Below, piece after piece: positions 57,116 to 63,444 of a DNA stretch of 64,000 nucleotides. The stretch's first letter is position 1, and every line of letters starts with the position of its first letter. This DNA is from Alitabrizicola rongguiensis (GTDB lineage: Bacteria > Pseudomonadota > Alphaproteobacteria > Rhodobacterales > Rhodobacteraceae): NCBI RefSeq assembly GCF_021491355.1, contig NZ_JAKENF010000003.1, positions 620,001-684,000 of the forward strand, in the 5' to 3' direction. The notes below the pieces were generated by a model. That model saw only the letters and a program-made list of their open reading frames with translations. It had not been told where the DNA came from and ran no database searches. A program made the position numbers and the translations under genes.

Positions 57116-58042
57116 ATGAACCAGACCGCAAACCTCGTGATCCGTCGCCTCGAACCGGGTGACGAAGCCGAGTGGCGCCGGCTCTGGACGGGCTATCTCG
57201 ACTATTACGAGACGAAACTGCCCGAGGCGATCTATGCGATCACCTTTGCCCGGCTGCTGGCCGCTGGCCCGAAGGAATTCCAGGGACGGATCGCGCTTCT
57301 CGACGGCAAACCCGTCGGTCTTGTGCATTTCCTGTTCCACCGCTCGTCCTGGAAGGTGGAAGATGTCTGTTATCTGCAGGACCTCTTCACCGACACCTCC
57401 GCCCGTGGGCAGGGCGTGGCGCGGGCATTGATCTCGCGGGTCTATGCCGAGGCGGACGCAGCCGGCTGCCCATCGGTTTATTGGTTCACGCAGGACTTCA
57501 ACACGACGGCGCGGCTGCTCTACGACCGGATCGGTGTGGAAACGCCCTTCATCCGCTACAGCCGCCCTGCCCCCTTCACGACCCCACCGGCGCGGGGCGG
57601 AGCGATCATTCGTCCGCTGTGCTCGGCTGATGAGCCGCAATGGCGTGAGTTGTGGAAAGGCTACCTGACCTTCTATGAAACCGCCCTTCCCGACGAAGTG
57701 ACGGATGCGACGTTTGCGCGGCTTCAGTCCGATGATCCCGACGAAATGCGCGGGCGCGTGGCAGAGGTTTCCGGCCGCCTGGTCGGGATGGTCCATTACG
57801 TCCGCCATCGTCATTGCTGGCGTGATGAAAAGGTGACCTATCTTCAGGATCTTTTCGCTCTGCCCGAGACACGTGGCACCGGTCTTGGCCGGGCCCTGAT
57901 CGAGGCGGTGTATCGCGAGGCTGACCTCAGCGGATCGCCCATGGTTTACTGGCTGACGGCCAGAAGCAACGCAACCGCGCGACAGCTTTACGACAGGATC
58001 GGCGTACTGACACCCTTCATCGAATACGACCGCCCGGAATGA
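57116..58042 (+). CDS. Protein with two GNAT acetyltransferase domains
   Basis: The 308-residue protein has two homologous GNAT domains of about 150 residues. Domain 1 has VCYLQDLFTDTSARGQGVARALI; domain 2 has VTYLQDLFALPETRGTGLGRALI, each with the acetyl-CoA pyrophosphate-binding loop (RGQGVA or RGTGLG). They also share YDRIGVETPFIRYSRP/YDRIGVLTPFIEYDRP. The repeat comes from an internal duplication. Substrates are unknown. It lies between MoxR and the DUF2927 gene, which it overlaps by four bases. Confidence 0.88.
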   Translation: MNQTANLVIRRLEPGDEAEWRRLWTGYLDYYETKLPEAIYAITFARLLAAGPKEFQGRIALLDGKPVGLVHFLFHRSSWKVEDVCYLQDLFTDTSARGQGVARALISRVYAEADAAGCPSVYWFTQDFNTTARLLYDRIGVETPFIRYSRPAPFTTPPARGGAIIRPLCSADEPQWRELWKGYLTFYETALPDEVTDATFARLQSDDPDEMRGRVAEVSGRLVGMVHYVRHRHCWRDEKVTYLQDLFALPETRGTGLGRALIEAVYREADLSGSPMVYWLTARSNATARQLYDRIGVLTPFIEYDRPE

Positions 58043-59620: not shown

Positions 59621-60805
59621 ATGTTCCTGCCCTTCCTCGACGCACTCAGGCGGAAGGGGGTGCCGGTATCGCTCCGGGAATATCTGACGTTCCTCGAAGG
59701 TATGGCGGCGGGGCTTGTGACCTATGACGCGGATGGGTTCTACTACCTTGCCCGCAGTGCGATGGTGAAAGACGAACGCCACATCGACCGCTTCGATCAG
59801 GCCTTTGCCGAGTGCTTTGCCGGGCTCGAGGCGATCACGCCTGAACAGGTGCTGGAGGCCGTCGACCTGCCGCGCGAATGGCTTGAGAAGCTCGCCGAAC
59901 GCTTCCTCACCGAAGAGGAAAAGGCCCAGATCGAGGCGCTTGGTGGTTACGACAAGCTGATCGAGACCCTTCGCCAGCGGCTTGCGGAGCAGAAGGGCCG
60001 CCATCAGGGCGGCAACAAGTGGATCGGAACCGCAGGAACCAGCCCCTTTGGCGCGCAGGGCTACAATCCCGAAGGTGTGCGTATCGGCCAGCAGGAAAGC
60101 CGCCACCAGCGCGCGGTGAAAGTGTGGGACAAGCGCGAATTCCGCGATCTCGACGATCAGGTCGAAATCGGCACCCGCTCGATCAAGGTGGCACTTCGAC
60201 GGCTGCGCAAATGGGCGCGTGACGGTGCGGTGGACGAACTGGATCTCGACGGCACCATCCGCGCTACGGCGGAACATGGCTGGCTGGATGTCCAGACCCG
60301 GCCCGAGCGCCGCAACGCGGTCAAGGTGATGCTGTTTCTGGACGTGGGCGGCTCGATGGATGCCCATGTGAAGGTTGTGGAGGAGCTGTTCTCGGCAGCG
60401 AAGTCCGAGTTCCGGCACCTGAAGCACTATTACTTCCACAACTGCATCTACGAAGGCGTCTGGACCGAAAACCTGCGCCGGTGGGATAGGCAGACGCCGA
60501 CCTGGGAACTGTTGCGCAGCTTTGGGCCGGACTGGAAGGCGATCTTCGTCGGCGATGCGTCCATGAGCCCCTACGAAATCCTGCACCCCGGCGGCGCGAA
60601 CGAACACTGGAACGAGGAGTCCGGGCAGGTTTGGCTGGAGCGGGTCCGCACACATTGGCCATCCAGCCTTTGGATCAATCCGGTACCAGAGCGCTATTGG
60701 GGACACACTCACTCGATCCGCCTGATCCGCGACATCTTCGAGAACCGGATGGTGCCGATGACGCTCGACGGATTGTCTCGGGGGATCAAGGAACTGGCGC
60801 GGTGA
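59621..60805 (+). CDS. vWA-domain protein of the CoxE/DUF58-like group
   Basis: The 394-residue cytosolic protein carries a von Willebrand A domain in its C-terminal half. The metal-ion site reads FLDVGGSMDAH, which is D-x-G-x-S rather than the usual D-x-S-x-S, as in many CoxE-type proteins. N-terminal marks are FLDALRRKGVPVSLREYLTF, and AGTSPFGAQGYNPEGVRIG occurs just before the vWA domain. It is the expected partner of the MoxR ATPase at 56171. Its stop overlaps the GTG of the next gene. Confidence 0.9.
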   Translation: MFLPFLDALRRKGVPVSLREYLTFLEGMAAGLVTYDADGFYYLARSAMVKDERHIDRFDQAFAECFAGLEAITPEQVLEAVDLPREWLEKLAERFLTEEEKAQIEALGGYDKLIETLRQRLAEQKGRHQGGNKWIGTAGTSPFGAQGYNPEGVRIGQQESRHQRAVKVWDKREFRDLDDQVEIGTRSIKVALRRLRKWARDGAVDELDLDGTIRATAEHGWLDVQTRPERRNAVKVMLFLDVGGSMDAHVKVVEELFSAAKSEFRHLKHYYFHNCIYEGVWTENLRRWDRQTPTWELLRSFGPDWKAIFVGDASMSPYEILHPGGANEHWNEESGQVWLERVRTHWPSSLWINPVPERYWGHTHSIRLIRDIFENRMVPMTLDGLSRGIKELAR

Positions 60806-61134
60806 CCAGGGAGAGCTTGCCGCGATGGGTCCTGCCGGCCTTCGTGGTTGCCGCGGCGGCGACGCTTGCTTTCGGGGGCATCCTGCTGTGGCATGTGCTG
60901 CGTCCCGAACCGCCGGCCGGACCGGTGCAAGACTGGATGACACCCGGCCTGATCGCGCATGTCTACGACCTGCCCAAGTCCGAGATGGAAGCGATCTTCG
61001 GAGAGCCGCAAAGGGATGGCACCAGGAAAAGCGCCAGGACCCTGGCCGAGATTGCCAAGGTTCAGGGGCTGGCCCCGGAGGAGCTTGTCGCCAGGGTGCA
61101 GGCGGCGGTCGACGCCAACAAGGCGCGGCAATGA
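60802..61134 (+). CDS. Small single-helix membrane protein, DedA partner copy 1
   Basis: The 110-residue protein starts at GTG 60802, overlapping the vWA stop (GTGA), and its stop overlaps the next ATG (ATGA). One helix near residues 9-30 (WVLPAFVVAAAATLAFGGILLW, in part) is followed by the motif PVQDWMTPGLIAHVYDLP and a helical end with LAEIAKVQGLAPEELVARVQ. A homologous protein with PVEDWMSP is encoded at 61778-62107, again directly before a DedA gene. The soluble part may fold as a small helical domain. I know no function. Confidence 0.8.
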   Translation: MTRESLPRWVLPAFVVAAAATLAFGGILLWHVLRPEPPAGPVQDWMTPGLIAHVYDLPKSEMEAIFGEPQRDGTRKSARTLAEIAKVQGLAPEELVARVQAAVDANKARQ

Positions 61135-61733
61135 TCGACTCGCTCTACGGCCTTGTGCCCACGCACGGCCCGGGCGTGCTGTTTCTTGCGACCTTCCTGT
61201 CGTGTCTGGCCTTACCGATCCCCTCGTCGCTGTTGATGATGGCGGCGGGCGCCTTTGTCGCATCGGGCGACCTGGCCGCCCTTTCCGTCCTGAGCGCGGC
61301 GCTGGCAGGGGCGCTGATCGGCGACCAGACCGGTTATGGTGCAGGTCGCCTCGGAGGAGCGATGCTGTGGCGGCGCCTGGCGAACAGCCCGACTTCGGGT
61401 CCGATGCTGCGAAAGGCCGCCGATGCGCTTGATCGTCGGGCGACGGCAACGGTGTACTTCAGCCGCTGGCTGGTCAGCGCTCTTGGGCCATACGTCAACT
61501 TTGCCGCCGGCGCGACGCAGGTGAACTGGCGGCGCTTCTCGCTGGCCAGCCTGCTGGGCGAATCGACCTGGGTCCTGCTCTATGTCGGGCTGGGCTATGT
61601 CTTCGCAGCCCAGCTCGACCAGATGGGCGAGACCGTGATTCCCGCGATCGGCTTCCTGGGGGCGGGCATGGTGACGCTGCTTCTGGGCCGGGCGATCTGG
61701 CAATGGTGGCGAAGCAGGACCTCTTCCCTCTGA
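61131..61733 (+). CDS. DedA-family membrane protein, copy 1
   Basis: The 200-residue integral membrane protein belongs to the DedA (SNARE-associated, VTT) family, whose members flip or recycle undecaprenyl phosphate and phospholipids across the membrane. Typical parts are LSCLALPIPSSLLMMAAGAF, GALIGDQTGYGAGRLGG and FSRWLVSALGPYVNFAAGA, with the conserved arginine and the proline-glycine hairpins. It is coupled by ATGA to the preceding small membrane protein. A second pair follows. Confidence 0.9.
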   Translation: MIDSLYGLVPTHGPGVLFLATFLSCLALPIPSSLLMMAAGAFVASGDLAALSVLSAALAGALIGDQTGYGAGRLGGAMLWRRLANSPTSGPMLRKAADALDRRATATVYFSRWLVSALGPYVNFAAGATQVNWRRFSLASLLGESTWVLLYVGLGYVFAAQLDQMGETVIPAIGFLGAGMVTLLLGRAIWQWWRSRTSSL

Positions 61734-61777
61734 CGCCAGGCTTGATCGGGCCCGCCGTGTCGGCGAATGATGACGGC

Positions 61778-62107
61778 ATGACATCTCCGCCATCTGCCAC
61801 GCCCCTGACGCTTCGGTTGATCTTCTGGGTAAGCCTCGCTCTCGGGCTGGCCTTCGCCGCCGATGCAGCGTGGCGCATCCTGAACGACGACGGACGGCGA
61901 CCGGTCGAGGACTGGATGAGCCCGCGCCATGTCATGGCTGTGTTCCATGTGCCCGAAACAGACCTTGGCCGCATCCTTGGCTTCCCGCCCGGCGCCCCGC
62001 CCTTCGCCTCGATCCGCGACCTTGCCCAAGCGCAGGGGCGTAGCGTGGCCGAGGTGATGGCCGAAATCCAGGCAGCGGCCGATGCCCATGCCGGGGATGG
62101 TCCGTGA
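61778..62107 (+). CDS. Small single-helix membrane protein, DedA partner copy 2
   Basis: The 109-residue protein is a paralogue of the one at 60802: one membrane helix (LIFWVSLALGLAFAADAAW), then RRPVEDWMSPRHVMAVFHVP and a helical end with LAQAQGRSVAEVMAEIQ. Shared positions include PV[QE]DWM[ST]P, a later V-[YF]-x-[LV]-P and an AQxQG-like stretch. The ATG at 61778 gives nearly the same length as copy 1; an in-frame ATG at 61703 overlapping the DedA gene is an alternative. Function is unknown. Confidence 0.78.
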   Translation: MTSPPSATPLTLRLIFWVSLALGLAFAADAAWRILNDDGRRPVEDWMSPRHVMAVFHVPETDLGRILGFPPGAPPFASIRDLAQAQGRSVAEVMAEIQAAADAHAGDGP

Positions 62108-62706
62108 TGCAGCACATCATCCATGAACTCAACGCCCTGATCCCGGCGCATGGCGCCTCTGTCCTGTTCGTGGTGGCGCTGATTTCCTGCGCCGGCATCC
62201 CCATGCCAACCTCGGCAATGATGATGGCGGCTGGCGCTTTCATCGCGGCAGGTGACATGCACATGGTGCCAGTGATGATCGCGACGCTGGTCGGCGCGGT
62301 GATCGGCGACCAGATCGGCTTTTTCGCCGGGCGCTTCGGCGGCGAGCCTTTCTGGCAGCGGTTCCATCGAAATCTGCGGCTGGCCCCTACAATGGACCGC
62401 GCCCAGAAGGAACTCGACCGGCGGGCGCTGATTGCGGTGATCATCAGCCGCTTTCCGCTTTCGGCGCTCGGCCCCTGGATCAATCTCGCCTCGGGCGCGA
62501 CGCGGGTCGGATGGAGCCGGTTCTCGCTTGGCGTGCTGATCGGCGACGGGATCTGGATCCTCGCCTATATCGGCGGCGGGTATGTCTTTGCCGACAATGT
62601 CAGTCATCTGAGCGCAAAAATGACCTCGGTGCTATCCGCCGTGGCCTTCCTCGGCCTTGCGATGATGGTCGGCAGAGCCATGTGGCGCAAGCACGAGGAC
62701 GGCTGA
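62107..62706 (+). CDS. DedA-family membrane protein, copy 2
   Basis: The 199-residue protein is homologous to the DedA protein at 61131 (ISCAGIPMPTSAMMMAAGAF, GAVIGDQIGFFAGRFGG, ISRFPLSALGPWINLASGAT). It starts at ATG 62107, overlapping the preceding stop by one base (TGATG), or at GTG 62104. Presence of two DedA-partner pairs in a row indicates a tandem duplication followed by divergence. The family role is flipping of lipid carriers; the two copies could differ in substrate. Confidence 0.9.
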   Translation: MQHIIHELNALIPAHGASVLFVVALISCAGIPMPTSAMMMAAGAFIAAGDMHMVPVMIATLVGAVIGDQIGFFAGRFGGEPFWQRFHRNLRLAPTMDRAQKELDRRALIAVIISRFPLSALGPWINLASGATRVGWSRFSLGVLIGDGIWILAYIGGGYVFADNVSHLSAKMTSVLSAVAFLGLAMMVGRAMWRKHEDG

Positions 62707-62748: not shown

Positions 62749-63444
62749 ATGTTGAAGTTCCTGCCCCTCTTGCTGATGCTAGCCTATGGCTATGCCATGT
62801 ACCGCTTTTCGGCCTGGCGGACGCTCAAGACGCTTGACGCGCAGTCGCGGCCGCTCGACGAGCCAGGCCTTGCCGTCATGACCGGCAAGATGGCCAAGGC
62901 GCTCGACCTGCCGCAGGTCAAGGTCAACGTGTACGAGATCGGAGCCGTCAACGGCTTGGCCGCGCCGGACGGGCGGATCTTCCTGACCCGCGGCTTCGTC
63001 GAGAAGTACCGGCAGGGCATAGTCTCGGCCGAAGAGTTGGCCAGCGTGATCGCCCATGAGCTTGGGCATGTGGCCCTCGGCCACTCGAAGCGGCGGATGA
63101 TCGATTTCACCGGGGCGAACGCACTGGGGATGCTGCTGATGGCGACACTGGGGCGCTTCGTTCCGGGCATCGGTCCGGTGCTGGTCCGCACCGTCACCGG
63201 CGCCCTGACCGCCCATCTGTCACGGAGCGACGAACACGAGGCGGATGCCTATGCCTCGGCTCTTCTGGTCAGGGCCGGCATCGGCACCGGGCCGCAGAAG
63301 ACGATGTTCCGCAAGCTTGGCGCCCTGACCGGCAGCAGCGGCATGCCCGGAGGCGCACCCGCCTGGCTGGCAAGCCACCCACCAATCGAAGAACGCATCC
63401 GTCGGATCGAAGAACGCGAGACGCGCTGGAGCGTCGAGGCCTGA
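62749..63444 (+). CDS. M48-family metalloprotease
   Basis: The 231-residue protein has an N-terminal membrane anchor or signal (LKFLPLLLMLAYGYAMYRF) and the zinc site VIAHELGHVALGH with a downstream glutamate in SRSDEHEADAYA. It belongs to the M48 group of HtpX- and BepA-like peptidases, which degrade damaged membrane or outer-membrane proteins. It lies 42 bp after the second DedA gene on the same strand, so it may be part of the same transcript. Confidence 0.9.
   Translation: MLKFLPLLLMLAYGYAMYRFSAWRTLKTLDAQSRPLDEPGLAVMTGKMAKALDLPQVKVNVYEIGAVNGLAAPDGRIFLTRGFVEKYRQGIVSAEELASVIAHELGHVALGHSKRRMIDFTGANALGMLLMATLGRFVPGIGPVLVRTVTGALTAHLSRSDEHEADAYASALLVRAGIGTGPQKTMFRKLGALTGSSGMPGGAPAWLASHPPIEERIRRIEERETRWSVEA

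Follow-up and report, generated by a model that had tools for sequence, protein, structure and literature searches.

Proteins of the DedA family, of bacteria and eukaryotes alike, are described as lipid flippases or scramblases, and C-terminal dimerization helices are mentioned for them (PMC10127716). Four residues, E39, D51, R130 and R136 in YghB numbering, mark the undecaprenyl-phosphate flippases (Todor et al. 2023, PMC10127716) and sit together on re-entrant loops (PMC7818093). UptA, a monomer-dimer in vitro, was studied as monomer and homodimer (PMC11474028). In the literature covered, DedA proteins have so far been studied as stand-alone proteins or as homodimers. The nearest known arrangement to the one reported here is that of MzrA in Escherichia coli, a small inner-membrane protein with one helix and a periplasmic C-terminus, encoded 3 bases after the dedA-family gene yqjA and acting via EnvZ/OmpR, independently of YqjA (PMC2727453). 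AcrZ is a small membrane protein that binds the transporter AcrB and alters its behaviour (PMC7267776).

Here we describe two tandem gene pairs in a stretch of 64,000 nucleotides from Alitabrizicola rongguiensis (contig NZ_JAKENF010000003.1, positions 620,001 to 684,000; the window). Each pair encodes a one-helix protein, here called S, followed by a DedA protein. Unlike UptA, the S-type DedA has a small companion protein, and unlike S, MzrA is encoded downstream of its dedA gene. We consider it likely that S is a dedicated DedA subunit, with its N-terminus in the cytoplasm, its helix on the last DedA helix and a periplasmic domain with a gating or holding function, in a complex that moves lipid. 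The constant pairing, the joint duplication and transfer, one fusion and the charge-based topology are well supported. The members of the DedA family are regarded as acting alone, but some probably have a second subunit.

Gene order and its constancy

The genes S1, DedA1, S2 and DedA2 lie in series on the + strand (60802-62706), with a CoxE-like VWA gene before and an M48 peptidase gene after them. S1 (60802..61134, +; 110 amino acids), recognized by profile and gene-order evidence and the S family alignments A1 and A2, starts with GTG within the last bases of the CoxE-like gene, overlapping it by 4 bases. Its stop is overlapped by 4 bases (ATGA) by the ATG start of DedA1 (61131..61733, +), a PF09335 protein according to the Pfam score and an AlphaFold2 model. 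After a gap of 44 bases follows S2 (61778..62107, +; 109 amino acids), supported by the reading frame, a genome search and AlphaFold2. DedA2 (62104..62706, +; PF09335, by reading frame and Pfam score) starts either at GTG 62104, overlapping the S2 stop by 4 bases, or at ATG 62107, overlapping it by 1 base. The motif common to the small proteins reads PVQDWMTP in S1 and PVEDWMSP in S2. S1 and S2 are 33% identical over S2 residues 16-104 (blastp E 5e-10), DedA1 and DedA2 45%. This confirms the preliminary description of the stretch, which had reported two pairs of a one-helix protein of about 110 residues and an overlapping or nearly overlapping DedA gene, with small proteins related outside the motif. 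In its own genome S2 matched S1 (E 1.8e-10). A third match (E 0.09), in an apparently unrelated reading frame of 282 amino acids, was rejected as chance. Of the four DedA-family genes of the genome, the two outside these pairs have no S nearby according to searches with S.

Among 61 genomes (the window's own and relatives), S was found in 16 by a search with S2. A profile of 22 S proteins (A1) detected it in 111 of 295 genomes of the family (110 of the 294 genera sampled), in 8 of 385 genomes of the class (the window's own, three clear and four weak) and in 13 of 398 genomes of the phylum; this search scores only some candidates per genome, and absences are not firm. Four loci (L003, L057, L058, L060) were set aside before counting. 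Three of these (L057, L058, L060) were weak class-level matches (E 0.004-0.008) covering the last helix pair only, in short proteins which we take to be ribbon-helix-helix proteins.

DedA lay directly downstream of S, on the same strand, for 126 of the 131 distinct S sequences. The other five were all at contig ends: four reach the end within 21 bases, and in the fifth (L083) 201 bases are left after S, where an overlapping frame begins DedA-like, as judged by eye, and then stops. The junctions of the 131 comprised 96 overlaps of 4 bases, 15 of 8 bases, 7 of 1 base and one fusion, the remainder lying within 102 bases, with the DedA start chosen by script. Seven short rows of the A1 search (fragments in G148, G172, G177 and G286) were not fetched; by their coordinates DedA adjoins there too. 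A scan of GTDB genomes yielded 147 relatives. In the 80 best loci, to which the count was confined, 79 of the 81 S matches had DedA next, and the other two were at contig ends. Wherever the flank suffices, DedA adjoins S (136 of 136 places, 17 with short flanks being excluded from the neighbour count). The other neighbours were less constant: of these 136 places, 78 had a CoxE-like gene upstream, 53 had M48 downstream and 47 had neither. In 15 loci with neither gene, the only frames of at least 120 amino acids recurring in at least 3 loci were DedA and one opposite-strand cluster mostly overlapping S. The arrangement is not a chance one: homologues of S are usually next to dedA, and the early proposal of a dedicated DedA partner is supported by these counts, by the fusion and by the co-variation described below.

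The fusion (L056 832-1839, minus strand) is a single reading frame of 335 amino acids, with S first and then DedA, in a genome of the same class and another family (G351). It is the only natural S-DedA fusion seen. In an alignment with separate sequences of both proteins, those of S came to lie on the DedA part of the fusion, and this alignment was rejected. Its DedA forms a long branch in the tree, and its genome, 87% complete with 5% contamination, was the sole member of its order in the search.

We also searched from the side of DedA, with a profile of the S-associated DedA proteins (A3). At a limit of E 1e-25 it gave 122 places, in 116 of the 295 family genomes, and 113 of the places reached 2e-54 or better. 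S was also present in 107 of the 108 family genomes with a strong match, the exception being G080. Four genomes had S and no strong DedA match. In two of them (G034, G036) S is at a contig end, and in G246 the DedA beside S (L070) was matched over 65 residues only. In the fourth (G272; L141 / L152) S and DedA both seem broken by frame changes, as though lost together.

Quick trees of S and of DedA, with support from the Shimodaira-Hasegawa-like approximate likelihood ratio test (SH-aLRT), bear on the history of the pair. The second DedA copies of the window's genus and that of another genus (G064) formed a group with a support of 100, and the corresponding group in the S tree had a support of 94. 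The first copies were less clearly grouped, those of S above all. Because the second copies group in both trees, S and DedA were duplicated as a unit, as the preliminary description had it, and apparently before the two genera parted. Another genome of the window's genus (G006) had one pair only, between CoxE and M48. The tandem pair is thus present in another genus as well (L106 in G064), its second copy joining those of the window's genus.

The pair was also found, with neither CoxE nor M48, in halophilic Gammaproteobacteria: Vreelandella, Halovibrio, Halospina and a strain of Ectothiorhodospiraceae. In both trees these copies formed a group (support 98 each) placed among copies from Alphaproteobacteria, with inner forks of 83-87. 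This suggests that the pair reached them by transfer as a unit.

Topology and helix co-variation

Neither S1 nor S2 could be assigned to a Pfam or NCBIfam family with a meaningful score, and over 78 members of the S family the matches to both databases were scattered, with one or two members per Pfam or NCBIfam family. S is a protein family without an assignment in either database, for which specific residue contacts with DedA are now predicted. That S is a helix-turn-helix protein which binds DNA is not supported: the Pfam families of that type matched at most 2 of the 78 members each (best E 2e-6, in one member), and DNA binding is unlikely because the domain is predicted on the periplasmic side. 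A likeness between the S domain and the end of DUF4405 proteins, their C-terminal tail, is conceivable.

The AlphaFold2 model of S2 (mean predicted local distance difference test, pLDDT, 91.6; predicted template modelling score, pTM, 0.68) has a long helix at residues 10-36 and short helices at 49-56, 60-67, 79-85 and 90-105. The long, presumed transmembrane helix is encoded at 61805..61885 (+). Its extent, transferred via the column map, places the approximate transmembrane helix of S1 at residues 8-34 (60823..60903, +). By the same map the WMTP motif of S1 (residues 45-48; 60934..60945, +), which opens the periplasmic helical domain, corresponds to WMSP in S2 (residues 46-49; 61913..61924, +). 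This motif, and not the helix, is the most conserved stretch of S: W is found in 177 of 178 homologues and M in 176, and one F of the helix is 94% conserved. In 174 of 178 the charge was more positive on the N-side of the helix than on its C-side. From this charge pattern, a topology with the N-terminus inside and the domain outside, in the periplasm, is well supported.

For DedA, the mean charges were -1.1 at the N-terminus, then -1.2, +3.9, +1.4 and -1.2 along the loops, and +2.4 to +2.7 in the C-tail. Their signs fit an N-terminus outside and a C-terminus inside. Both predicted topologies agree with an antiparallel contact of the two proteins, and with the order of S and then DedA in the fusion.

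Co-variation was analyzed by mean-field couplings in 178 pairs, with an effective number of 149. They come from 194 S sets, of which 188 had a DedA match; ten of the latter were dropped, L056 and L066 along with eight (including L141) whose DedA stretch was no longer than 150 residues. The top couplings between the proteins were S18-D186 (z 9.6), S14-D188 (7.7), S22-D182 (7.2), S17-D185 (6.9) and S25-D182 (6.6), followed by S24-D3 (6.4), S29-D175 (5.5) and S20-D178 (5.3). All except S24-D3 connect the S helix with the last DedA helix as an antiparallel ladder, and in strength they match the best couplings within DedA. Single couplings reached z 7.2 in a shuffle, and weaker ones mean little alone. 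The ladder as a whole scored 3.35, against at most 2.05 in 12 partner shuffles, and the largest raw coupling was 2.20 against 1.39.

In the window, the ladder joins S1 residues 10-25 to DedA1 residues 175-188 (61653..61694, +), placed by the couplings, the column map and the model, where they fall within the last helix (159-199). The equivalent part of DedA2 comprises residues 178-191, counted from ATG 62107 (62638..62679, +; couplings and column map).

The signal was compared with that of neighbouring genes sharing the same descent. In the subset with CoxE (122 pairs) the antiparallel score was 2.76 for S-DedA, against 2.06 for S-CoxE and 2.18 for DedA-CoxE. The parallel scores of descent-sharing control pairs ranged from 1.94 to 2.27. 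The same helix window was best in both random halves of the data (2.57 and 2.72), and it came first (3.43) in the 120 pairs left when those from named genomes were taken out. From the antiparallel ladder of co-variation, the evidence that the S helix touches the last DedA helix is good, though not final.

Role of the small protein

Both DedA proteins exceeded the PF09335 gathering score of 33.9 (62.3 bits for DedA1, 65.8 for DedA2). The DedA1 model (pLDDT 94.4, pTM 0.82) has helices at residues 2-25/32-44, 50-84, 90-113/116-128, 133-157 and 159-199. This pattern is compatible with a fold in which two pairs of re-entrant helices would each pack against a transmembrane helix, the re-entrance being read from the helix limits and not from coordinates. 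Against eight E. coli proteins, the profile of the S-type DedA scored 88 bits for YabI, 87 for DedA, 66 for YohD, 45 for YghB and 43 for YqjA, and lower for YdjZ (24), YdjX (10) and YqaA (10). YdjZ and YqaA represent COG0398 and COG1238, respectively (PMC10127716). By profile score, the S-type DedA sits with the COG0586 members of E. coli as its closest branch.

The S-type DedA shares the VTT domain with UptA and the COG0586 flippases but differs from them in their hallmark residues. The E39 column holds S in 170 and the D51 column S in 162 of 178 pairs. These columns (24 and 33) were never acidic in the 178 pairs, nor were the adjacent columns 25 and 32. At R136 we found G in 173, C in 3 and A in 2, and at R130 we found R in 109, T in 47, C in 19 and H in 3. 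Other residues have become near-constant (C25 in 173, P31 in 178, D65 in 177, P120 in 178, N123 in 168 and E144 in 162). Both DedA proteins of the window are far below the NCBIfam cut-off of 250 for UptA (29.9 and 41.8 bits). A role of the S-type DedA with the carrier lipid undecaprenyl phosphate is doubtful because E39, D51 and R136 are lost and R130 is kept in 109 of 178 only, and the earlier idea that S is a regulator or adaptor of lipid-carrier recycling was not borne out. Flippases of the DUF368 type, considered as an alternative, were found in 0 of the 295 family genomes (positive in 3 of 14 control genomes), and therefore gave no presence-absence contrast.

As a dedicated subunit, S would have its N-terminus in the cytoplasm and cross the membrane antiparallel to, and touching, the last DedA helix. 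The conserved helical domain of S, which begins with WMTP and consists of two helix-turn-helix-like units, would lie in the periplasm over the transporter. There it would most likely hold or gate a DedA that lacks both acidic residues and one of the arginines seen in the classical flippases, and the complex would move a lipid, be it a phospholipid or a polyprenyl-phosphate lipid, between the leaflets. Given that dimerization helices are mentioned for the DedA C-terminus, a homodimer contact might be replaced or modified by S. The role proposed for S resembles that of AcrZ as a small membrane subunit of a transporter, with no relation in sequence claimed, and differs in the additional conserved periplasmic domain. 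If true, a constant second subunit would give the DedA family a two-part form, duplicated and transferred as a pair, and would offer a direct handle on the role of the last helix and the outer face.

Several observations speak against a DedA subunit of this kind. No description of S, or experiment on it, was found in the openly licensed literature, and fold searches with S2 and DedA1 gave no match to solved structures at E up to 0.001. With the hallmark flippase residues missing, the lipid-transport role is taken from family membership. Among the 97 pairs that have M48 the antiparallel score was 2.15 for S-DedA against 1.99 for S-M48 and 2.06 for DedA-M48, the S-DedA window lying on the same diagonal as in the full set, though with no clear excess. 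The 58 pairs from named genomes alone had their best window elsewhere (3.10). Finally, six DedA proteins of the S-type clade are without S. They include the second DedA copy of G233 and four of the nine weaker A3 places (G154, G195, G205, G210); the remaining five weaker places fall outside the clade and are acidic at both the E39 and D51 columns. S is therefore not always needed, and the strict pairing first described has to be qualified accordingly, although DedA is beside S wherever the contig allows. At four such loci (L241, L243, L244, L245) a CoxE-like gene lies directly before DedA, in place of S, and R replaces E144 in four of the six S-less proteins. G233 carries an S-DedA pair besides L241, its second CoxE-like/DedA locus, where only part of the last DedA helix aligns.

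The root distance of these S-less proteins is also greater, with a median of 5.10 (6 rows) compared with 4.23 for the S-bearing ones (72 rows; p 3e-5, the rows not being independent). This fits the alternative that S is an assembly or stability factor, a chaperone that touches the last DedA helix and has no role in transport. The frequent 4-base overlap (96 of 131), with likely translational coupling, and the predicted contact on the last helix agree with it as well. The highest conservation, however, is in the periplasmic WMTP motif and not in the helix, which suggests a task on the outer face, and we regard a chaperone as possible but doubtful.

In a variant of the dedicated subunit, which we put forward only tentatively and think rather unlikely, the two proteins would form a lipid transporter of two subunits whose charge site is composite. 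In it, a basic residue in the middle of the S helix would face DedA E144 and replace the lost residues, and S would be a lipid-selecting outer lid. The mid-helix position is R or K in 145 of 178, and the E144 column is acidic in 169 of 178. Their meeting is suggested by the helix positions; the couplings are silent here, the columns being near-constant. S1 and S2 of the window carry I and D at this site. If the composite site is real, the pairs of this genome have therefore changed the arrangement again.

It is improbable that S is a signalling protein like MzrA, which would share an operon with dedA and act elsewhere, for example on a sensor kinase, without contact to DedA. MzrA has the same membrane layout and a similar gene position, and provides a precedent for such independence. 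Homology was rejected, as MzrA had no similarity to the S profile (E 0.36), and the S-DedA linkage is kept in the 47 of 136 places without the usual neighbours and in the fusion, and is accompanied by co-variation. Least probable is shared descent in one conserved operon without any physical contact: most loci come from one bacterial family and the signal largely or wholly disappears in the weaker data subsets, but descent-sharing gene pairs reached antiparallel scores of 1.99-2.18 only, against 2.76 (CoxE subset) and 3.35 (full set) for S-DedA, with the same helix pair found in both sets and first in both random halves.

Habitat and flanking genes

The pair occurs in many marine and salt-loving bacteria. 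Its hosts include two laboratory roseobacters, Yoonia vestfoldensis DSM 16212 (L225) and Loktanella salsilacus DSM 16199 (L197). A plasmid search with S2 gave no match, and one with a more typical S gave a single record, a 60-kb Jannaschia plasmid (L257, Jannaschia sp. M317), on which the pair is annotated as "hypothetical protein" and "DedA family protein". Genes of a betaine/proline/choline ABC transporter precede it there, and a choline dehydrogenase follows with one gene between. Together with the halophilic hosts, this context hints at salt stress. In two halophilic Gammaproteobacteria a membrane protein, which we take to be a PsiE relative, is encoded upstream of the pair (L172 444-962, L177 2858-3373), next to S in L177 and one gene off in L172.

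The two genes flanking the pairs in the window are not part of them. The CoxE-like VWA protein (59621..60805, +; PF05762 with 28.4 bits against a cut-off of 26.4) is a frequent, not constant, upstream neighbour, and the M48 metallopeptidase (62749..63444, +) a frequent downstream one. Farther upstream, at 57116-58042, the window encodes a protein with a tandem pair of acetyltransferase (GNAT) domains.

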